Translations under genes and position numbers: made by a program
Source of the DNA: an uncultured Alphaproteobacteria bacterium
GTDB taxonomy: Bacteria; Pseudomonadota; Alphaproteobacteria; SP197
Length of the DNA stretch: 64,000 bases
NCBI GenBank assembly: GCA_943787175.1
Contig: CALSLK010000006.1
Span: forward strand, 372,001-436,000
Direction: 5' to 3'
Notes under the pieces: generated by a model
What the model was told of the DNA's origin: nothing
Database searches by the model: none
Seen by the model: only the letters and a program-made list of their open reading frames with translations
Shown here: in pieces, positions 1,706-24,219 of the stretch
Layout: the number at the start of each line of letters is the position of its first letter
Position numbering within the stretch: position 1 is the first letter of the stretch

Positions 1706-1850
1706 ACCCGGTTCCGCAACGCGGAAGGGGGGCTGAAGGCACGCGACCGCGTGCCCACGCCGCATGGCGCGAAAGCCAAGCGCGCAACCCGATCAGGTCG
1801 GGTGTAAACTCCGCGCGCACCCGGCGACTGAGGGAACAGAGAAAACGGGA
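1706..1850. repeat. Intergenic structured repeat, copy 1
   Basis: Shares gcgcgaaagccaagcg and gcacccggcgactgagggaaca with the reverse complement of 24075..24180; hairpins at 1712-1726, 1738-1755, 1758-1769, plus copy-specific 1787-1803. Confidence 0.75.
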
Positions 1851-24065: not shown

Positions 24066-24074
24066 TGTTTTTGT

Positions 24075-24180
24075 TGTTCCCTCAGTCGCCGGGTGCTCAC
24101 GCTGTTCGCTTGGCTTTCGCGCCGCTCGGCGCGCCGACGCAGTCGCGTCGGGCCAGCCATCCGCAAAAGTTGCGGATCGC
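24075..24180. repeat. Intergenic structured repeat, copy 2 (inverted relative to copy 1)
   Basis: Hairpins at 24118-24133, 24134-24151, 24159-24177; sequence homologous to the reverse complement of copy 1. Confidence 0.75.
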
Positions 24181-24219
24181 TGCCTTCAGAATTTCATCGG
24201 CTGTGCTGGAAGCCTTGGT

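Follow-up and report, generated by a model that had tools for sequence, protein, structure and literature searches.

Structured intergenic mosaic repeats are represented in Alphaproteobacteria by RIME and Bru-RS, the repeats of rhizobia and Brucella. The family described here likewise consists of structured intergenic repeats in this class, and it is likened to them by description only. The REP and BIME elements with their RAYT transposases (PMC2817692) and the related REPINs (PMC3116915) also occur in many intergenic palindromic copies, solo, inverted or in tandem, and are likewise non-autonomous, with a palindrome that is kept despite sequence drift. A REP has one hairpin, whereas the alphaproteobacterial unit has four or five over about 77-155 nt. 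REPs carry a GT(A/G)G head and have been described as species- or strain-specific (PMC2817692), whereas our unit has no such head, its source genome has no RAYT, and its core motifs are kept across several orders.

The GTAG- and CGTC-tagged palindromic repeats (PMC3733652) are short genomic palindromes of high copy number as well; the GTRG tag is theirs and is not seen in the alphaproteobacterial unit, and the main text of that paper makes no mention of Azospirillum, Magnetospirillum, Rhodospirillum or sphingomonads. Bacterial MITEs (reviewed in PMC10969869) resemble the family in being small, non-coding and mobile and in the inverted-repeat architecture of its paired elements; the family differs from them in its directional core, and neither a parent insertion sequence nor a clear target duplication was recognised.

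The window analysed here is the whole 64,000-nucleotide stretch from an uncultured alphaproteobacterium, in which an earlier note had pointed to two intergenic copies of a structured repeat, in opposite orientation and with shared sequence blocks. Both copies were found where they had been placed: block GCGCGAAAGCCAAGCG is exact at 1767-1782 (+) and 24107-24122 (-), block GCACCCGGCGACTGAGGGAACA is exact at 1817-1838 (+) and 24075-24096 (-), and neither occurs anywhere else in the window. We consider it probable that both are copies of a non-autonomous, REP/BIME-like, multi-hairpin interspersed DNA repeat, presumably mobilised in trans by an enzyme.

A multi-hairpin unit in many copies

The features of the two copies are listed below by position in the window. 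Hairpins were read from the sequence, and R1 is a covariance model of the unit built from source-genome copies only.

1712-1726, + strand: copy 1 hairpin H1, TTCCGC-AAC-GCGGAA
1738-1838, + strand: copy 1 core unit, H2-H3-AAGCCAAG-H4-tail hairpin (R1 match G000:C6:373738-373838, E=8.6e-13)
1738-1755, + strand: copy 1 hairpin H2, GGCACGC-GACC-GCGTGCC
1756-1771, + strand: copy 1 hairpin H3, CACGCC-GCAT-GGCGCG
1773-1780, + strand: copy 1 conserved single-stranded motif AAGCCAAG (from conservation across units of other genomes)
1780-1818, + strand: copy 1 hairpin H4 (arms 1780-1785/1813-1818)
1820-1834, + strand: copy 1 tail hairpin, CCC-GGCGACTGA-GGG; its 9-nt loop GGCGNYTGA is conserved
24066-24219, - strand: copy 2, whole insertion of about 154 bp (mnmG-rsmG site empty in congeners)
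24075-24151, - strand: copy 2 core unit (R1 match G000:C6:396075-396151, E=1.3e-15)
24159-24177, - strand: copy 2 hairpin H1, ATCCGCAA..TTGCGGAT
24134-24151, - strand: copy 2 hairpin H2, CCGACGC-GACT-GCGTCGG
24118-24133, - strand: copy 2 hairpin H3
24079-24093, - strand: copy 2 tail hairpin, CCC-GGCGACTGA-GGG

Copy 1 is a solo unit between what we take to be an FAD oxidoreductase gene (76-1653) and a small EutQ-like/cupin gene (1874-2236), and copy 2 lies between what are presumably the mnmG stop and the rsmG start. H1 and H2 of both copies are present just as they had been written out in the earlier note, which had the blocks and hairpins in the right positions and drew the element itself too short, given the length of the copy 2 insertion. 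The H4 of copy 1 encloses an insert of 27 nt with a hairpin of its own. As a single strand, copy 1 folds better than all 200 of its dinucleotide shuffles (z -4.8), as does copy 2 in the orientation of the unit (z -4.4, with z -2.7 for the other strand).

Blast and pattern searches of the source genome, an assembly of 38 contigs that is about 92% complete, gave dozens of related stretches, and the common unit was derived from an alignment of 24 of them. It runs in the order H2 (tip GCGACYGC), H3, AAGCCAAG, H4 and a tail hairpin of consensus CC(C)-GGCGNYTGA-(G)GG, after which an A-rich tail (GAACAAACAAAAAG) often comes; H1, variable in sequence, is a further hairpin 5' of the unit. R1 finds 62 matches in the source genome at E<0.1 and 61 at E<1e-3, so that copies exist well beyond the window and the two inside it are no coincidence. 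They are arranged as 23 inverted pairs, all of them -/+ with the tails outward, and about 15 solos, copies 1 and 2 included. The family is thus high-copy, mainly intergenic, palindromic and mosaic in its arrangements, as REP/BIME elements are.

Two further observations concern the make-up of the elements. The H4 of many units, for example at G000:C6:128408, contains tandem G·A/A·G pairs (YGARC-GGA-GYGARY), and these recur with different flanking pairs in three other genomes (G005, G022 and G056). Several elements of the source genome (C11:78770-79170, C24:14375-14785 and C8:108660-109000) and of its nearest relative, the congener G004, have another palindromic repeat (TGTCATCCCGG...CCGGGATGACAC), unrelated to the unit, nested within them or next to them.

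Compensatory change and conserved unpaired motifs

The orthologue of copy 1 stands at the matching position in G004. In the 106 nt that begin just 5' of H2 and run to the tail, the two differ by ten substitutions, nine of which are consistent with pairing: eight form four double-compensated pairs, three in H2 (GACGTGC-GACC-GCACGTC in G004) and one in H4 (C-G to T-A), and the ninth restores pairing in H3, where copy 1 has its single A·C mismatch and G004 has G-C. H1 reads TTTCCGC-AAA-GCGGAAA in the orthologue.

Covariation was the other claim of the earlier note, and it is strong with more copies aligned. Among the source-genome copies 87% of cells are paired, against 74% in shuffles, and 64 cells are double-changed, against 21; among 128 distinct units from other genomes the paired share is 95.3% against 69.1%, a kind of percentage that is inflated because the alignment was fitted to the structure. 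In the same 128 units 530 cells are double-changed (shuffles: 175), and the covariation score is 0.444, against 0.098 in shuffles and at most 0.035 in slid controls. Related copies are not independent of one another, but the covariation is overwhelming, and an effect of this size can hardly be doubted.

Selection on structure, which the earlier note had read from such changes, is a different matter. The compensatory changes are there, but on their own they are no proof of selection, because template switching during replication also creates and repairs hairpin arms (PMC8794818). The units might even be neutral relics, with hairpins kept perfect purely by such quasi-palindrome correction and without current structural selection. 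The strict Watson-Crick pairing on both strands would fit, as would the turnover of the stems, which is mainly from C-G to G-C with many swaps that lack wobble intermediates, and the H2 change between copy 1 and G004, which is clustered and affects both arms. Template switching does not conserve loops, however, and unpaired motifs are kept across orders, so that we regard purely neutral upkeep as quite improbable and the conservation of these motifs as the better argument for recognition. In 121 distinct units from other genomes, the A, G, C, C, A and A of AAGCCAAG are conserved at 93-98% and the final G at 99%, values that are partly built in because AGCCAA belonged to the pattern by which loci were selected. 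The 9-nt loop was likewise largely fixed by the search pattern, and among the unpaired motifs the H2 tip GCGACYGC alone lay outside it.

Structure in DNA or in RNA

The earlier note had left it between RNA and REP/MITE-like DNA. If the functional molecule were an RNA strand, G·U pairs should be well above A·C pairs, since each is a single transition away from G-C or C-G. Units from other genomes have 53 G·U and 40 A·C cells (p=0.21) beside 2,227 Watson-Crick cells, and the 45 best matches have nine and five beside 854. The near-equality may partly reflect decay, as many copies are relics. Fifteen tRNAs from unit-bearing loci, a control that is biased because ARAGORN accepts certain pairs only, gave 18 G·U, no A·C and 303 Watson-Crick pairs. 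H4 taken alone leans to G·U (16:7 in the units from other genomes); an RNA-like first count for this helix, 23:4 with redundant source-genome copies included, was not borne out over all helices of the units from other genomes. With G·U not clearly favoured, a role as RNA is unsupported.

Placement relative to genes, called with a home-made GC3-based gene caller, points the same way. Among 145 placed units, 50 lie in convergent spacers and 22 in divergent ones, and between co-directional genes 42 run along the genes and 31 against them, without strong strand bias. Gene 3' ends are favoured and divergent promoter regions avoided. A GAGG does stand 8-16 nt before a same-strand start codon in about 14 of the 64 units that have a same-strand gene downstream, exactly 10 nt before it in eight, and to judge from this spacing the gene that follows some copies may now use their GAGGG as its ribosome-binding site. 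Insertions may therefore alter expression. The 3' end of the unit places GAGGG 8-10 nt before the next start codon at L195 (an nrdR-like gene), L155, L157, L146, L217 and L233, and at L232:1512-1667 a queC-like gene apparently either reads through the unit in frame, as an N-terminal extension, or takes its start region from it.

These observations bear on a class-wide structured RNA, an sRNA or a 5' or 3' UTR element that is multi-copy by chance and whose 3' GAGGG may be a ribosome-binding site. Such an RNA would account for the strong covariation and conserved loops, for the stronger fold of copy 2 on its sense strand, for the GAGG spacing and for the excess of G·U in H4. It is nonetheless unlikely, because G·U has no clear lead over A·C overall, strand bias relative to genes is slight, convergent spacers are preferred, copy 2 was inserted recently (see below), and Rfam 15 has no match to the window or to 20 unit-bearing loci. 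On this last result a known RNA family was rejected. A riboswitch-like leader was set aside as well, the neighbouring genes having been noticed to be diverse in an informal survey of their functions and the strand bias being weak. The insertion polymorphism, the bias towards intergenic and convergent-gene positions and the inverted-pair architecture instead favour structure at the level of DNA.

Insertion and mobility

None of the nine congeners has the element at the site of copy 2, where their mnmG directly abuts rsmG; copy 2 is a recent insertion. Insertion against an empty site, as expected of a MITE, is also seen in Azospirillum, where A. lipoferum and A. ramasamyi carry the element at the paaK-marC site and A. 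oryzae and B510 have an empty site, and several pair elements that G004 has are missing from more distant congeners. No clear target duplication was seen at the copy 2 and paaK-marC sites, the flanks being too diverged or ambiguous.

The ends of the elements bear on whether the family could be a MITE of a conventional insertion sequence with terminal inverted repeats. Many Azospirillum-type copies start with TACCA and end with TTGGTA, the 5' end of copy 2 (- strand) reads (T)ACCAAGG, its start TACCAAGG resembling theirs, and the source genome has its inverted pairs. Solo directional units of the source genome lack such ends, however, the ends differ greatly between genomes, the core is directional and also occurs in solo copies and tandem arrays, and neither a parent insertion sequence, at the seven loci inspected, nor a clear target duplication came to light; there is accordingly only a slim chance that the family is of this conventional kind.

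At three shared paired-element sites (C6:142965-143250, C6:226190-226590 and C5:208480-208815 of the source genome, against L361, L362 and L363 of G004), the unit types on the left and on the right look swapped, which suggests that the internal segment may have been inverted or gene-converted.

No mobilising enzyme was found. No autonomous transposon was seen between neighbouring units at the seven loci inspected, which held ordinary genes only. The REP-type (Y1) transposase that the earlier note had proposed to look for is absent from the source genome and most carriers: PF01797 had no match in ten carriers (G000, G002, G004, G005, G009, G010, G013, G026, G055 and G057), some of the carrier genomes being incomplete. 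Three carriers (G016, G022 and G056) do have a Y1 match, none of which is flanked by two units; the one in G056 has one unit on one side. The GTRG head is not in the consensus, and of 132 units only 34 have a GTRG anywhere in the 60 nt before AGCCAAG, roughly the chance expectation. For the source genome, with no Y1 match and no GTRG head in the consensus, a RAYT-driven REP was thereby rejected, and for want of these two features we do not file the repeat as a REP even though it works like REP/BIME.

Distribution across Alphaproteobacteria

Of 61 relatives, 13 contain the pattern AGCCAA...CCGGCRNYTGAGG, and a single genome may have as many as about 66 exact copies; the reversed control pattern gave one stray match. 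In a phylum sample of 399 genomes it was found in 15 of 138 genomes of the same class and two of 261 of other classes, against no match for the reversed control. Named carriers include Azospirillum, Nitrospirillum, Niveispirillum, Magnetospirillum, Roseomonas, Roseococcus, Caenispirillum, Sphingomonas, Erythrobacter and Qipengyuania. R1 matches the full four-hairpin unit in loci from other orders, down to E=3e-15, and because these loci had been chosen by the AGCCAA...TGAGG motif only, homology is supported independently by H2 and H3. In Alphaproteobacteria the family is widespread, and it spans several orders. No description of it appears in the open-access titles and abstracts searched, which is weak evidence for novelty, and it is apparently uncatalogued.

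Units also occur in some contigs filed as viral bins. One such contig has tandem arrays with a period of about 108 bp (L288:5980-6520, L250 and L290), in which neighbouring members differ in H3 while pairing is kept.

A repeat that may be read as folded DNA

The sequence comparisons suggest the following picture. In single-stranded or cruciform form the DNA of the unit would adopt four or five hairpins, with AAGCCAAG, the H2 tip GCGACYGC and the 9-nt loop GGCGNYTGA as conserved unpaired motifs. A trans-acting transposase or recombinase would recognise the folded DNA through these motifs, and units would be copied or moved into intergenic spacers as solos, tandem arrays or tail-outward inverted pairs. 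Only pairing would matter, which leaves the stem sequence free to drift, and the pairing could be restored through selection for recognition, through repair of the hairpin arms by template switching, or through both.

One possibility, which we put forward tentatively, is that the family is a mobile repeat dependent on folded DNA across orders, with motifs read by an enzyme other than a RAYT, and thus an independent counterpart of the gammaproteobacterial REP/RAYT system. What began as two odd intergenic stretches is a repeat family over several alphaproteobacterial orders that is missing from Rfam, and it points to a missing mobilising enzyme. Because its stems are freely rewritten while its unpaired motifs stay fixed across orders, the repeat also lends itself naturally to testing whether hairpins are maintained by selection or by template switching during replication.
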